NCBI RefSeq assembly: GCF_004137765.1 | Contig: NZ_NOIS01000003.1 | Span: forward strand, 186,001 to 250,000 | Length of the DNA: 64,000 nt | Direction: 5' to 3' | Origin: Rothia uropygialis | Lineage (GTDB): Bacteria > Actinomycetota > Actinomycetes > Actinomycetales > Micrococcaceae | Shown here: positions 56,942-63,945 of the stretch, one piece after another | How the letters are laid out: the number at the start of each line of letters is the position of its first letter | Numbering within the stretch: position 1 is the first letter of the stretch | Position numbers and translations under genes: made by a program | The notes under the pieces: generated by a model | What the model saw: only the letters and a program-made list of their open reading frames with translations | What the model was told of the DNA's origin: nothing | Databases searched by the model: none

Positions 56942-58993
56942 CTATGAATGCATCAGGGTCTCCACGGGGTCGATCCGCCCCGCTTTCCAGGCCGGGTAGG
57001 CCCCGGCCACGAGGCCCACGACGAGCCCCGCGGCGAGTCCCCACGCAACCGTTCCGGCACTGACTATGGGCTGCCAATGGTTCACCACGCTGATGGTTGC
57101 AATTGCGTCCAGCGCAACGACCACCCCAGCCACCGCGCCGACAGCACTCGTCAGCATCGCCTCGGCCGCGAACTGGACCATGATCCCTCTCGCCCGGTTC
57201 CCGAGAGCCAGACGGAGACCGATTTCCTTGCGCCTTTCCAGCACTGCGACCAGGAACGTGTTCATGATCCCGACGGTTCCGATCAGCAATGTCACTGCCG
57301 AGAGGGTCAACAAGAGAGAACGCTGTTGCTGGTCCACCGCTCGACGCAGGGTTTCCGGCTCAGCGGGGACGCTGGCCGCGAAGAGCACAGGCTGGTGAGG
57401 GCTGAGCGCCATGGGTGCCTCGCGGCCGACCTGAGGCGCCGCCCCGGGAGCCGTAGCCAGGACGACGCTGGTTCGACCGCCGTCGTGACCATCCAGGCTC
57501 ACACCCAACGGAACGTATACCGCTCCGTGGTAGTCGGACAAGGACGGGTTCTCGGTGGTCACCCCCACCACCGTGAGAGGTTGTCCCCCGACGAACAGCG
57601 TCAGACCGGACGTCCACGGGATACCTAGGTTCTCCAAGAGGGAGCGCCCGACCACGGCCACACGGTCTTTGCGATCCATGTGGCCCTCGTCGAATGTTCG
57701 CCCGTCAGTAACCTCTTGTCCTTGGGCCACGAAAATACTGGGGGTCGCGGCCAGAACGGGAGCCTGCACCCGCCCTTCAAAATCCTGCCGGGTTTCCGGA
57801 GCAGGGGTGACCGTCTCGACACTGGTGGTCAACGGACGAATCACGGCAGTGGATGTGACGCCGTTCAGTTTCCCGAGCCTTTTGATCCCTTCTCCACGGG
57901 CGAGGTCCACGGCTTCCTCGGAGGTGAGCGGTGCCTGTGCCGTTTGGTTGAGGACAATCCGTTGTGCTTTGAAGACGTTGAACGCGTCGGAGAGCTGTCC
58001 GGCAATGGTCGAGGTGAGCCCGGTGGTCAGGACCAAGGTGGCGACCCCCAGCGTCACTCCCAACGTGGTCAGCAGGTTGCGGCGAGCTCGCCGGATCACG
58101 GCTTCAGCGGCTTCGACCACCCCCGAGCGGAACGTCGACAGATTCTTGGCGTTCGGTTCCCGGATTGGCGTTTGTATGCCGGCTCCAGCACCTACCGTGT
58201 CAGGTTCATGGCTGCCCCGCTCGGACCCCTCGAATGTCCGCGTTCCGCTCTCCACGGGATTTGCTTCAGCATCGGTCGGGGGTGACGACTCGAAAAGACG
58301 GCCGTCGTCAAGCGTGAGTGAGCGGTCGCATTGGGAGGCCACCCACGGATCATGGGTGACGATCACCGTTGTCTGTTGAGGCCCCGTCATCGCCCGGAGC
58401 ATGTGCATGACCTCGCCTGACCGCCGCGAATCCAAGGATCCCGTCGGCTCGTCGCACAGCAGAAGCTTCGGGTTCGTGACGAGCGCACGGGCAATCGCTA
58501 CTCGTTGTTTCTCTCCGCCCGAGAGGGTTCTCGGCATCGCGTCCCGGCGATGACTCAGGCCCAGCCTGTTGAGCATGCGTTCCGCCAAAGCCCGGCGTTC
58601 GTGCTTTTTGACCCCTAGGTATTTGAGGGGGAGCTCGACATTGGCCATGACGGTCTTGTGCTCCACCAGGTGGAAGGCTTGGAAAACGAAGGAGATCTTC
58701 TCAAGCCTCGTGGCGGCGCGCTCCGCACGGGTCAGGGCGGCCGTGTCCCGACCGTCGAGGAGGTAGCTTCCCTCGGTGGGTGGCGCGAGGAGACCCAGGA
58801 TATGGAGGAGAGTGCTCTTGCCTGATCCGGATGGTCCGACTACCGCGACCATCTCGCCCGGCCGGAGTTCGACGTCCACGCCGCCGAGCACCCTGGTCCG
58901 AGAGCCTCCCTCATCGAAGACCTGTCCCAGACCGCGCGCGACGACTGATTGGCCGGCCACACCGTCAGTCCCTTGCCCGACGGCAGCGGTCAC
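56942..58993 (-). CDS. MacB-like ABC transporter, ATPase fused to permease
   Basis: 683 residues. The N-terminal ATPase (about 15-235) has Walker [17 protein letters not shown], signature [16 protein letters not shown] and Walker [14 protein letters not shown] poorly conserved linker (about 236-290) leads to the MacB-type permease: a first helix ([20 protein letters not shown]), a large extracytoplasmic domain (about 325-560) and three C-terminal FtsX helices ([20 protein letters not shown] onwards). Such proteins drive export of peptides or lipoproteins by mechanotransmission with an adaptor. It starts at GTG 58993, overlapping the adaptor stop by 4 bp. Confidence 0.9.
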
Positions 58994-61123: not shown

Positions 61124-61504
61124 TCAGACTTGTTCCACGAAATCTGCCATGTCATTAAATCTGACGCTTTTCAAATTGTCCTCATACCAGCCGGGCGGCA
61201 GGGTTTGGCCAATAAACTGCCTACCCCGACGCCACTGACCAATACCTTCGGAAGCCCTAACGTTCGCGTTGGTCCACGAACTCGCGCGATCGTGAAGGGA
61301 TCGACTCAGGTCCGTATACCCGTTGTAACCGTTAATGACCTGCGACGAACCGCCACGACGAGCATGCTCATAGACGCACACATTGGAGGTGGGGCATCCA
61401 AGTACGGTAGCGGAAGCGGGTGGTGCCGCGATCACCAGACTCGATGCCAGACCACAAGCTACTAGCGAGCCAGCCAGAAGTTTCATCGATATTAACAATT
61501 TCAT
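61124..61504 (-). CDS. Secreted small protein of the peptidase-inhibitor I36 / crystallin-like family
   Basis: 126 residues. The signal peptide (MKLLAGSLVACGLASSLVIA, cleavage near ASA-T) precedes a domain with the I36 pattern: GCPTSNVCVYEHARRGGSSQ, then an L-S-x-x-L/D-R-A-S-S-W-T-N segment and a closing FNDMADFVEQV. The Streptomyces metalloproteinase inhibitor SMPI belongs to this fold, but many members are uncharacterised and could equally be antibacterial or wall-binding. It is the promoter-proximal gene of the four-gene locus. The start may be Met1 or Met7. Confidence 0.72.
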   Translation of the reverse strand: MKLLISMKLLAGSLVACGLASSLVIAAPPASATVLGCPTSNVCVYEHARRGGSSQVINGYNGYTDLSRSLHDRASSWTNANVRASEGIGQWRRGRQFIGQTLPPGWYEDNLKSVRFNDMADFVEQV

Positions 61505-61681: not shown

Positions 61682-62986
61682 TCACCCGCTAGCCAGATGC
61701 CCCCGGAGGGTCGCGGCGTCGTAGTCCGTGCGGAAGCGGCCACGTTTCTGAAGTTCCGGAATCACCTGGTCCACGAAGTCCTCGATGCCGCCCGGCAGGG
61801 TCGGGAGCATCAGGTTGAAGCCGTCCGCTCCCCCGTCGTCCAGCCAGTGCTCGATCTGATCGGCAATGGTCTCCGGGGTCCCGACCATGGTGCAGTGTCC
61901 GCCACCGGCCGCGAGCCGCCCCAGGAGCTCGCGCACCGTGGGGCGCTCGGCTTCGATGATGCGCAGAATCGTCGCGTACCGCCCTTTGGGCCCGGTGAAC
62001 TGCTCGAGCGGTTCGAGCTCCGGGACGGGCGCGTCGAGCTCCCAGTCGCTGCAGTCGCGCTGCACGAATTTTCCCAGCTGGCGCAGGGAGGCCTCGACGG
62101 GCAGGAGCTCGTCCAGCTCCCTTCGCTTCCGTTCGGCTTCCTCGACGGTCGAGCCCACGTAGGTCACGAGCCCAGGCATCACGACGACGTCGTCCGGGTT
62201 CCGGCCCGCGGCCGCGACCCGACGCCGAATGTCGGTGCGGTATTCCTCGCCCTGTTCGAGGTCATAGGCGACGGCGTAGATACCTTCCGCGCGACGCGAT
62301 GCGAGGCTTCGTCCGGGTTCGGACGCACCCGCCTGGAACAGCACGGGCCGTCCCTGCGGCGGTTCGGGCACGTTGAGCGGACCGGCGACCGAGAAGTGTT
62401 CGCCCTCGTGGTCCACGCTCCGGATCTGGGTCCTATCCGCGTAGCGCCCCTCTCGGTCCGCACATATCGAGGAACGAGGCCACGAATCCCACAGGGCCTG
62501 AACCGCATCGATGAACTCCTCGGCCCTGGCGTATCGCTCCTCATGAGGAGGCAGAGTAGCCATTCCGTGGTTGCGGGCCTCGCCGTCGAACATGGACGTC
62601 ACGACGTTCCAACCGGCCCGCCCGGAACTGATGTGGTCCAGACTCGCGAGCATCCGGGCCGCATGGTAGGGCGCGTAGAAAGAGCTGGATACCGTGCTGA
62701 CCAGGCCGATCTTCGAGGTCGCCCGCGCCATTGCGGCCAAAGCAGTCAACGGCTCGAGGAACCACGCGGGAGAATCCTCGATCCCACCGGGGCTCAGGGA
62801 CTGGCCGTCGGCAAAGAAAACAGCGTCGAGTTTTCCACGCTCGGCGATCTGCGCGAGTTCTTCGTAATAACCGATCTCGCCGAGCCGCTCGACTGACGAG
62901 CCGGCAGACCGCCACGCGGCGTTGTGGTGCCCACAGCCGAAGATGAACAGGTTGATGTGTGCTTGTTTTTTCATCACGGCGCTCAT
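61682..62986 (-). CDS. LLM class flavin-dependent monooxygenase (NtaA/SnaA/DszA type)
   Basis: 434 residues, a bacterial-luciferase-like TIM barrel using reduced FMN from a separate reductase. Family landmarks: INLFIFGCGHHNAAWR, YEELAQIAERGKLDAVFFAD, LEPLTALAAMARATSKIGL, SSSFYAPYHAARMLASLDHI, SGRAGWNVVTSMFDGEARNHG and PVLFQAGASEPGRSLASRRA. Relatives oxidise nitrilotriacetate, EDTA, sulfones and N- or S-heterocycles. The ATG overlaps the upstream SDR stop by 4 bp, so both follow the TPP riboswitch. The substrate is unknown; thiamine or pyrimidine/thiazole derivatives are the inference from regulation. Confidence 0.85.
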   Translation of the reverse strand: MSAVMKKQAHINLFIFGCGHHNAAWRSAGSSVERLGEIGYYEELAQIAERGKLDAVFFADGQSLSPGGIEDSPAWFLEPLTALAAMARATSKIGLVSTVSSSFYAPYHAARMLASLDHISSGRAGWNVVTSMFDGEARNHGMATLPPHEERYARAEEFIDAVQALWDSWPRSSICADREGRYADRTQIRSVDHEGEHFSVAGPLNVPEPPQGRPVLFQAGASEPGRSLASRRAEGIYAVAYDLEQGEEYRTDIRRRVAAAGRNPDDVVVMPGLVTYVGSTVEEAERKRRELDELLPVEASLRQLGKFVQRDCSDWELDAPVPELEPLEQFTGPKGRYATILRIIEAERPTVRELLGRLAAGGGHCTMVGTPETIADQIEHWLDDGGADGFNLMLPTLPGGIEDFVDQVIPELQKRGRFRTDYDAATLRGHLASG

Positions 62987-63777
62987 CCCTTGACCAAGCC
63001 ACCGTCGACGATCAAGTTCTGCCCGGTCACAGACCGGGCCCACGGCGAGGCGAACAAGAGAATCGCGTCGGCCATTTCGTCCGGGGTGGTCACCGAACGC
63101 AGCGGCGTTCCCGCAGCGATCATGTCGAAGACCTCATCCGGTGTTGCGGAGCTGGCGTCCGTCTCCCGCAGCAGACCGCCGGAGACCATGTTGACCGTGA
63201 TGCCCTCCTGCCCCAGGTCGTGGGAGAAGGTCCTGGTCAGGGACAGCAGGGCGGCCTTGGCGGCCGTGTAGTCATGGTACGGGACCACGGGGTTCTGGAA
63301 CAGGTTCGTGCCGATGTTCACGATGCGTCCGAAACCCCGCTTGGCCATGCCAGGCCGGAGCGCCTGGATCATCGCGACCGGCCCGTGGAGCGACCCGTCG
63401 ATCTGTTTCTGGAATTCCTCTGCGGTGATGTCGGCGGCTTTCGACCGGGCCTCGCCGTTGAAGCTGAAGTCCACCAGGGCGTTGTTGACCAGCGTGGTGG
63501 GTGCGGCGTCGAAGAACTCGGAGGCTGAAGCCGCGAACTTGCGAATGCTCTCCCCGTCTCGAACGTCAAGGGCCGCGCAACGGGCTCGGTCCGGGAACTC
63601 GTCGACGATGCACATGGCGTCGTCCTTGCTGCGGTGGTAGCCGATCACCACTCGTGCCCCTTCGCGGAGGAAAGCGCGGCTGATGCTCTCTCCCAGGCCC
63701 CTCGCACCGCCGGTCACAACCACGATCTGCTCGCCGATGGGCAGAACGCTCGATACGGTGGTGGGATTTTCGGTCAT
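62983..63777 (-). CDS. SDR family oxidoreductase under a TPP riboswitch
   Basis: 264 residues of the classical short-chain dehydrogenase family. The NAD(P) motif is VVTGGARGLGES (about 20-31), the NNA motif is TLVNNALVDFSF, and the catalytic Tyr/Lys are in YHDYTAAKAAL. Where the catalytic Ser is usually found (N-I-S-S) this protein reads NIGTN, so a Thr may replace it. It resembles FabG-type reductases in outline but has no fatty acid neighbours. It is the first gene after the riboswitch; GAGAGG lies 8 bases before the ATG and is part of a small hairpin. Confidence 0.85.
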   Translation of the reverse strand: MTENPTTVSSVLPIGEQIVVVTGGARGLGESISRAFLREGARVVIGYHRSKDDAMCIVDEFPDRARCAALDVRDGESIRKFAASASEFFDAAPTTLVNNALVDFSFNGEARSKAADITAEEFQKQIDGSLHGPVAMIQALRPGMAKRGFGRIVNIGTNLFQNPVVPYHDYTAAKAALLSLTRTFSHDLGQEGITVNMVSGGLLRETDASSATPDEVFDMIAAGTPLRSVTTPDEMADAILLFASPWARSVTGQNLIVDGGLVKG

Positions 63778-63784
63778 GGTCTTT

Positions 63785-63833
63785 GCCTCTCGATCGAGGC
63801 GAAGGCACCCGAAAGAGCGGTTCTCGCAACCGC
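63785..63833 (-). promoter_or_regulatory. Candidate expression platform of the TPP riboswitch
   Basis: Read on the minus strand, GCGGTT-GCGAG-AACCGC (63833-63817) forms a hairpin followed by TCTTT, a weak terminator shape. Nearer the SDR start, GCCTC-GATCGA-GAGGC (63800-63785) would bury the GAGAGG ribosome-binding site. Either could be the switch. Which one acts cannot be told by eye. Confidence 0.45.
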
Positions 63834-63868
63834 GGCTGCGGCACGCGGATGCAAGTGCGCTCTGCGGA

Positions 63869-63945
63869 CATTCCCTTCGCCAGTACTAGCTGAATCAGGT
63901 TCTACGGGTTTCATCTCAGCCTCCCTCCGGAGGCACCCCGTGTCG
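63869..63945 (-). promoter_or_regulatory. TPP riboswitch (THI element)
   Basis: The minus strand reads, in order, ACGGGGTGCC, GGCTGAGATGAAACCCGTAG, AACCTGATTCAG and CTAGTACTGGCGAAGGGAA. These are the conserved P1/P2, pyrimidine-sensing (CTGAGA), P4/P5 and diphosphate-sensing (GGCGAAGGGA) parts of the thiamine diphosphate aptamer. The SDR start is 92 bases downstream. Binding of thiamine diphosphate normally switches the downstream genes off. Confidence 0.93.

Follow-up and report, generated by a model that had tools for sequence, protein, structure and literature searches.

The DNA analysed here (the window, in what follows) is a stretch of 64,000 nucleotides (nt) of Rothia uropygialis (GCF_004137765.1, contig NZ_NOIS01000003.1, positions 186,001-250,000), and the system in question is a thiamine diphosphate (TPP) riboswitch followed, on the minus strand, by the genes of a short-chain dehydrogenase/reductase (SDR) and a luciferase-like monooxygenase (LLM). 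The original prediction had placed a TPP aptamer at 63945-63869 (minus strand) and had staked its reading on a covariance-model match; the Rfam scan (cmscan) gave a full-length RF00059 match at 63950-63854(-), with 65.3 bits against a gathering cut-off of 54.3 and an E value of 1.4e-10. The aptamer was also detected by a locally built covariance model, R1, which was trained on 16 leaders, the window's included, and matches its training leaders by construction. The SDR gene (62983-63777, minus strand) encodes 264 amino acids (aa); its stop overlaps the LLM start in an ATGA at 62983-62986(-), and from this likely start, ATG 62986, the LLM gene (61682-62986, minus strand) would yield a 434-aa product. 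A longer LLM open frame, reaching 63043, was considered over-extended and the start at 62986 was preferred. Given the ATGA overlap and profile scores above cut-off for both proteins (385.7 bits on NF006393 for the SDR, curated cut-off 292; 519.6 bits on TIGR03860 for the LLM stretch 61682-62980, cut-off 279.7), the two translationally coupled genes that had been proposed, an SDR and an NtaA-type monooxygenase, hold up.

The SDR belongs to the NF006393/PRK08642 family and takes its NCBI name, 3-oxoacyl-acyl carrier protein (ACP) reductase, from the NF006393 model. An NIGTN motif had been noticed where the catalytic Ser usually lies, and correctly so: among 80 aligned SDRs, this position holds Thr in 79, the window's included, and Ser in one, with Tyr170 and Lys174 invariant in all 80 rows. 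Thr is able to replace the catalytic Ser in some SDRs. The signature GTNLxQxPVVPYHDYTAAK is conserved across the alignment, except for a single Ser in place of Thr157 and the two x positions. An assignment as a plain FabG was rejected on this signature and on the lack of a fab gene in the SDR's own operon at the annotated loci.

The LLM is a member of the NtaA/DmoA (TIGR03860) family, with the riboflavin lyase RcaE, NtaA, EmoA, DszA/BdsA and CmoJ among its relatives. Its best fold matches include BdsA, CmoJ, NtaA, RcaE and EmoA (TM-scores of 0.81-0.89 over the query). With CmoJ/YtnJ, NtaA, EmoA, DszA/BdsA, DmoA and RcaE it shares the family score and the fold, but identity to the solved full-length members is only 31-39% in structural alignment, and the AlphaFold models of both proteins, with ordinary SDR and NtaA-type folds, give no hint of a substrate. 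In this family, LLM enzymes act by oxidising a carbon that adjoins N or S; the bond then breaks and a carbonyl remains. Several NtaA/DmoA-family enzymes are known to break C-N or C-S bonds adjacent to an oxidised carbon. The two-gene cassette holds no flavin-reductase gene; the flavin reductases of such monooxygenases are often unlinked.

Between aptamer and SDR start, the leader is predicted to fold as two hairpins, the second of which (GCCTCGATCGAGAGGC, 63785-63800, minus strand, in the predicted minimum free energy structure) covers GAGAGG (63791-63786), the likely ribosome-binding site of the SDR gene; the folding z-score of the 102-nt leader, from predicted minimum free energies, is -3.9. 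A conserved stretch of the aptamer core, GGCGAAGG (63881-63874, minus strand), is perfectly complementary to CCTTCGCC (63805-63798, minus strand), which has 3 nt in common with the sequestering hairpin, offering an 8-nt alternative and possibly anti-sequestering pairing whose enforcement costs only about 3 kcal/mol (-74.4 versus -77.5 kcal/mol). When 62 leaders and the window were compared, leaving 57 after the removal of 6 without a core match, an exact complement of at least 8 nt to the aptamer core was found downstream in 32 (each p<0.05 against 200 shuffles) and was lacking in 25, and the longest core match averaged 6.98 nt against 5.24 in shuffled leaders, figures to be read with related leaders not being independent, the control shuffling single letters and the searched stretch being able to extend into coding sequence. 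The predicted geometry is plausibly that of a translational OFF switch. The element resembles the TPP riboswitches (THI elements) that stand before salvage genes in its aptamer family and in its predicted translational OFF geometry with anti-sequestering pairing, but it differs from them in preceding two oxidoreductases without a thiamine name.

Spread of the pair and of its aptamer

The locus set consisted of the best 80 of 524 confirmed SDR relatives in genome contigs, with 60-85% identity. On model R1, a TPP aptamer lies directly upstream of the SDR and on its strand in 58 of the 80 loci, in Actinomycetota and Pseudomonadota, and an LLM gene lies directly downstream of the SDR in 54, a count that includes L030 and L066, where the LLM frame looks broken in the assembly, and leaves out a remnant in L035 (193 bits). 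Aptamer and LLM are found together at 47 loci; related pairs lacking TPP elements, which the original prediction had named as counter-evidence, are therefore the lesser part, the aptamer preceding 47 of the 54 SDR-LLM pairs. Five of the 7 pairs without an SDR-side aptamer are from Achromobacter, in which the aptamer precedes a divergently oriented symporter gene on the opposite strand. A scan of 11 loci at the Rfam cut-off returned the SDR-side aptamer in L012, L014, L018, L024, L032, L073 and L080, a thiM-side one in L048 and a symporter-side one in L057, with none in the two remaining loci, L060 and L104.

The same arrangement, with the aptamer above the Rfam cut-off, recurs in Pseudochrobactrum, Rhodococcus and Mesobacillus, in each case on plasmids; the aptamer that directly precedes the SDR on a Bacillota plasmid scores 82 bits. 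In the SDR tree (80 rows, namely the window and 79 loci, L066 having been left out for a stop), Nocardiopsis copies nest in an otherwise proteobacterial group, the SDRs that follow thiM-thiE-thiD form one clade with a support of 100/100, and the presence of the LLM switches repeatedly. Among 369 genomes of the class sampled around an Alcaligenes genome (G064), an LLM orthologue at E<=1e-130 was found in one only, the centre genome itself. Transfer of the whole cassette is likely. The notion that SDR and LLM always act together was rejected, given genomes with a TPP-preceded SDR alone and LLMs that are paired with an alcohol dehydrogenase (ADH) elsewhere (see below).

Two further observations concern these loci. 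SDR relatives of about 60-64% identity in Lysobacteraceae (L060, L061, L063, L064, L081, L083) and Caballeronia (L114, L116) have no TPP aptamer at the locus and no match to the thi, yko or symporter queries. On R1, the SDR-side aptamers on which it was trained score about 57-96 bits, and the symporter and Brevibacterium thiD aptamers about 37-46. SDR-side aptamers may form a sequence subtype, but the division is blurred by the scores of thiM-side aptamers (74.6 in the window's own genome, 62-66 in rhizobia) and of a thiD-side one in L103 (67.4).

Thiamine genes around the pair

In the window, no thiamine gene adjoins the cassette, as had been noted, and the contig upstream runs into EfeB-, EfeO- and EfeU-like genes (read from translations), so that the cassette is free-standing here. 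Elsewhere in the same genome there are three further TPP sites, before thiM-thiE-thiD-tenA, ykoEDC and thiO-S-G-F, the last of them 0.1 bit below the Rfam cut-off. At other loci the SDR or the LLM is found inside such operons. Five rhizobial loci have the order TPP-thiM-thiE-thiD-SDR, without an LLM, and by annotation the same is true of Neorhizobium and Gemmobacter. The order TPP-thiM-thiE-SDR-LLM was found in L103 (aptamer by Rfam, ThiM matched, ThiE by PF02581), where a convergent thiD (PF08543) has the R1-scored aptamer given above, which is not listed at the Rfam cut-off. In L018 the cassette runs on into transport genes, as TPP-SDR-LLM-ykoE-ykoDC (ykoE by PF09819), and the yko genes have no aptamer of their own.

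The order thiO-thiS-thiG-thiF-ADH-LLM in L128, with a weak TPP aptamer (31.1 bits on R1, not listed by Rfam), brings in a replacement of the SDR. Here and in L127, where neither R1 nor Rfam detected an aptamer, the SDR's place before the LLM is taken by a zinc ADH (PF08240/PF00107; L127:3811-4842(-) and L128:4012-5022(-)), the two being 72% identical to each other and below the cut-offs of the NCBIfam models that they match. No SDR was found in the stretch read around these two pairs, a reading confined to that stretch and to frames with a G+C content at third codon positions of at least 0.78. That a non-homologous alcohol dehydrogenase can fill this position speaks for an alcohol/aldehyde pair as what the SDR acts on.

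A third type of neighbour is a sodium:solute symporter gene, present at 23 of the 80 loci, all of them within the 26 proteobacterial SDR-LLM pairs. R1 detects a TPP aptamer on the symporter strand in 22 of the 23, and in both of those scanned with Rfam, L024 and L057, it was confirmed. The symporter gene is mostly divergent from the pair, being downstream and convergent in L062, L069 and L074, and the three examples scanned (L057, L017, L074) are PF00474 proteins. Parts of PMC11452348 describe ThiV, a candidate HMP (hydroxymethylpyrimidine) transporter of SAR11, as belonging to the same symporter family and having a TPP riboswitch; the proteobacterial symporter resembles ThiV in its family and in its aptamer.

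The link between the SDR-LLM pair and thiamine is strong. The gene-neighbourhood comparison that the original prediction had called for returned pairs under TPP aptamers, and the SDR or LLM inside thiM-thiE-thiD, thiM-thiE and thiOSGF operons. As to the thiamine-related role itself, the link stands on the 47 of 54 aptamers and on these operons, and the compound acted upon is one that we can only infer. That the pair serves thiamine salvage in some form is very probable.

The proposed pyrimidine salvage and its alternatives

The form of salvage that we prefer, with a probability of about 0.45, is a TPP-repressed salvage of the pyrimidine, HMP, via an aldehyde, in which the substrates, direction, order of steps and pyrimidine moiety are those that we infer. 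At low TPP, the leader would expose the ribosome site, and translation of both coupled genes would follow. The LLM, with reduced flavin mononucleotide from an unlinked reductase, would oxidise the 5-methylene of a pyrimidine-CH2-X compound. Candidates for X are an amine, a sulfonate or, in a breakdown product of thiamine, its damaged thiazole; the departure of X would leave 4-amino-2-methylpyrimidine-5-aldehyde. The SDR, or the zinc alcohol dehydrogenase in two relatives, would then reduce this pyrimidine aldehyde to HMP, to be phosphorylated by ThiD and joined to the thiazole by ThiE. Reduction of the pyrimidine-5-aldehyde to its alcohol gives HMP, the substrate of ThiD. That the carbonyl made by the LLM is an aldehyde to be reduced is suggested by the SDR following and by an alcohol dehydrogenase being able to replace it; the SDR and LLM steps may also run in the reverse direction. 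The known TenA/YlmB salvage likewise recovers HMP, from base-degraded thiamine, but it is hydrolytic rather than oxidative and involves neither an SDR nor an LLM.

The gene content of the genomes is more in keeping with the pyrimidine side than with the thiazole side. The thiamine genes found in the window's genome are thiM-thiE-thiD-tenA, thiO-S-G-F, a further thiE and ykoEDC (ThiS read from translation; the TenA-family protein matches PF03070 and is below the NCBIfam cut-offs), and ThiC was found neither there nor in any of the 31 genomes sampled in the genus (three of which are less than 90% complete, at 87, 65 and 72). ThiG is present in 12 of these 31, and an LLM orthologue (76-100% identity) in 6 of the 12 and in 0 of the 19 ThiG-negative genomes (Fisher 0.0013, not corrected for kinship), with a TPP aptamer preceding the LLM by about 0.9-1.0 kb in 6 of 6. 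In a set of 50 genomes, those of 50 of the 80 SDR loci, ThiC was matched in 30 (one match fragmentary) and absent from 20, ThiG was present in 47, and 18 genomes had ThiG without ThiC against one with the reverse; two genomes appear to have been reached twice (G031/G006 and G033/G024), so the genus and 50-genome counts overlap. Among the 198 genomes of the order sample, the LLM orthologue was found in 6 and ThiC in 31, none of them among the six; full-length ThiG was present in 54, including 4 of the six, and 30 of the 198 had ThiG without ThiC. One genome of the 50-genome set, that of Kocuria tytonis (L044), has a TPP-SDR-LLM cassette and a ThiC-like gene that is internally shortened, a single 432-aa frame matching the profile in three pieces (1-132, 232-297 and 363-419; G058 C2:967689-968441).

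Several results weigh against pyrimidine salvage by the pair. ThiC is matched in 16 of the 33 LLM-bearing genomes of the 50-genome set (one match fragmentary), and the association of the LLM with the absence of ThiC (17 of 33 versus 3 of 17, Fisher 0.032) loses its significance when independent pairs are compared, so that a firm association with ThiC loss was rejected; ThiC is rare in the order anyway (31/198), and six genus genomes have ThiG, no ThiC and no pair. Seventeen of the 80 SDR loci have no same-strand upstream TPP aptamer, and 12 have no TPP aptamer at all. Eleven TPP-SDR loci are without an intact LLM, and whole-genome searches of 8 such SDR-only genomes returned no LLM orthologue at E<=1e-90, so the SDR does not need the LLM for its task; these loci would fit an SDR that accepts the aldehyde from other sources. 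Finally, the thiM neighbours suit a thiazole or a whole-thiamine substrate equally well.

The last point leads to the best surviving alternative, a thiazole-side salvage in which LLM and SDR would remake hydroxyethylthiazole, an alcohol, for ThiM from an oxidised or substituted thiazole. It would account for the SDR in the TPP-thiM-thiE-thiD-SDR and TPP-thiM-thiE-SDR-LLM operons, but ThiG, the de novo thiazole maker, is retained in 47 of the 50 SDR genomes, as against ThiC missing from 20, and every genome of the genus sample that holds the pair is ThiG-positive. We consider this alternative unlikely. Somewhat less likely still is a repair or detoxification of the whole vitamin, in which the LLM would split damaged thiamine or an antivitamin and the main gain would be the removal of an inhibitor rather than HMP. 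One of the LLM's relatives, RcaE, splits a vitamin (passages of PMC12746152 describe its removal of the ribityl chain of riboflavin), and TPP control would react to any fall in TPP that an antivitamin brought about, but the thiamine-related neighbours that were found are genes of synthesis, salvage and uptake, genes of efflux or resistance not having been searched for. In L020, an MFS-like transporter (by reading) follows the SDR on the other strand.

A more radical possibility, which we regard as improbable, is that in bacteria without ThiC the pair replaces this enzyme by making HMP, with the use of oxygen, from a metabolite not derived from thiamine, and that its hosts would be thiamine prototrophs by a non-textbook pathway. 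Consistent with it, ThiC is missing from all 31 genus genomes although ThiG is retained in 12, and ThiE and ThiD are likewise present in the window's genome; against it, about half of the LLM genomes have ThiC as well, the window's genome has the TPP-preceded uptake system ykoEDC, and in several genomes the SDR manages by itself. A role in fatty-acid metabolism or in some other unrelated process, with the pair merely placed behind a TPP aptamer, could draw on the NCBI name, on some proteobacterial SDRs that stand alone without TPP, and on lipid genes outside the SDR operon (acetyl-CoA carboxylase 3.8 kb away in L113; acyl-CoA dehydrogenase and enoyl-CoA hydratase 5-7 kb away in L111), but the enzymes are found time and again alongside thi genes and TPP aptamers, which makes such a role very improbable.

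Outside the cassette, the window holds a small protein directly downstream of the LLM (61124-61504, minus strand), which weakly matches peptidase inhibitor family I36 and begins with a signal-like segment, and a 683-aa fusion of an ATP-binding cassette (ABC) ATPase with a MacB/FtsX-type permease (56942-58993, minus strand), adjoined by two proteins without a Pfam match.

The riboswitch class and both protein families are already known. A 2002 survey of THI elements reportedly named a THI-regulated, oxoacyl-reductase-like SDR without a role, oarX, which may correspond to this SDR; to our knowledge, neither the LLM partner nor the replacement by an ADH formed part of that account, and we know of no NtaA/DmoA-family monooxygenase that is TPP-controlled. 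Among the titles and abstracts listed in literature searches, none gave a functional account of a TPP-controlled SDR/LLM pair, and a word search confined to the main text of PMC3766115 found 0 occurrences of "oxidoreductase", "monooxygenase" and "dehydrogenase". In marine microbes, a need for HMP is the commonest thiamine auxotrophy described, according to parts of PMC11452348. If pyrimidine salvage is what the pair does, a widespread, TPP-preceded enzyme pair that gives access to other sources of pyrimidine would redraw the line between true and apparent "auxotrophs", and the name 3-oxoacyl-ACP reductase would be replaced on many annotated genes. With the exchange of the SDR for an ADH and the thi operon contexts, an oxidoreductase long left without a role becomes a question for a single enzyme assay to answer.

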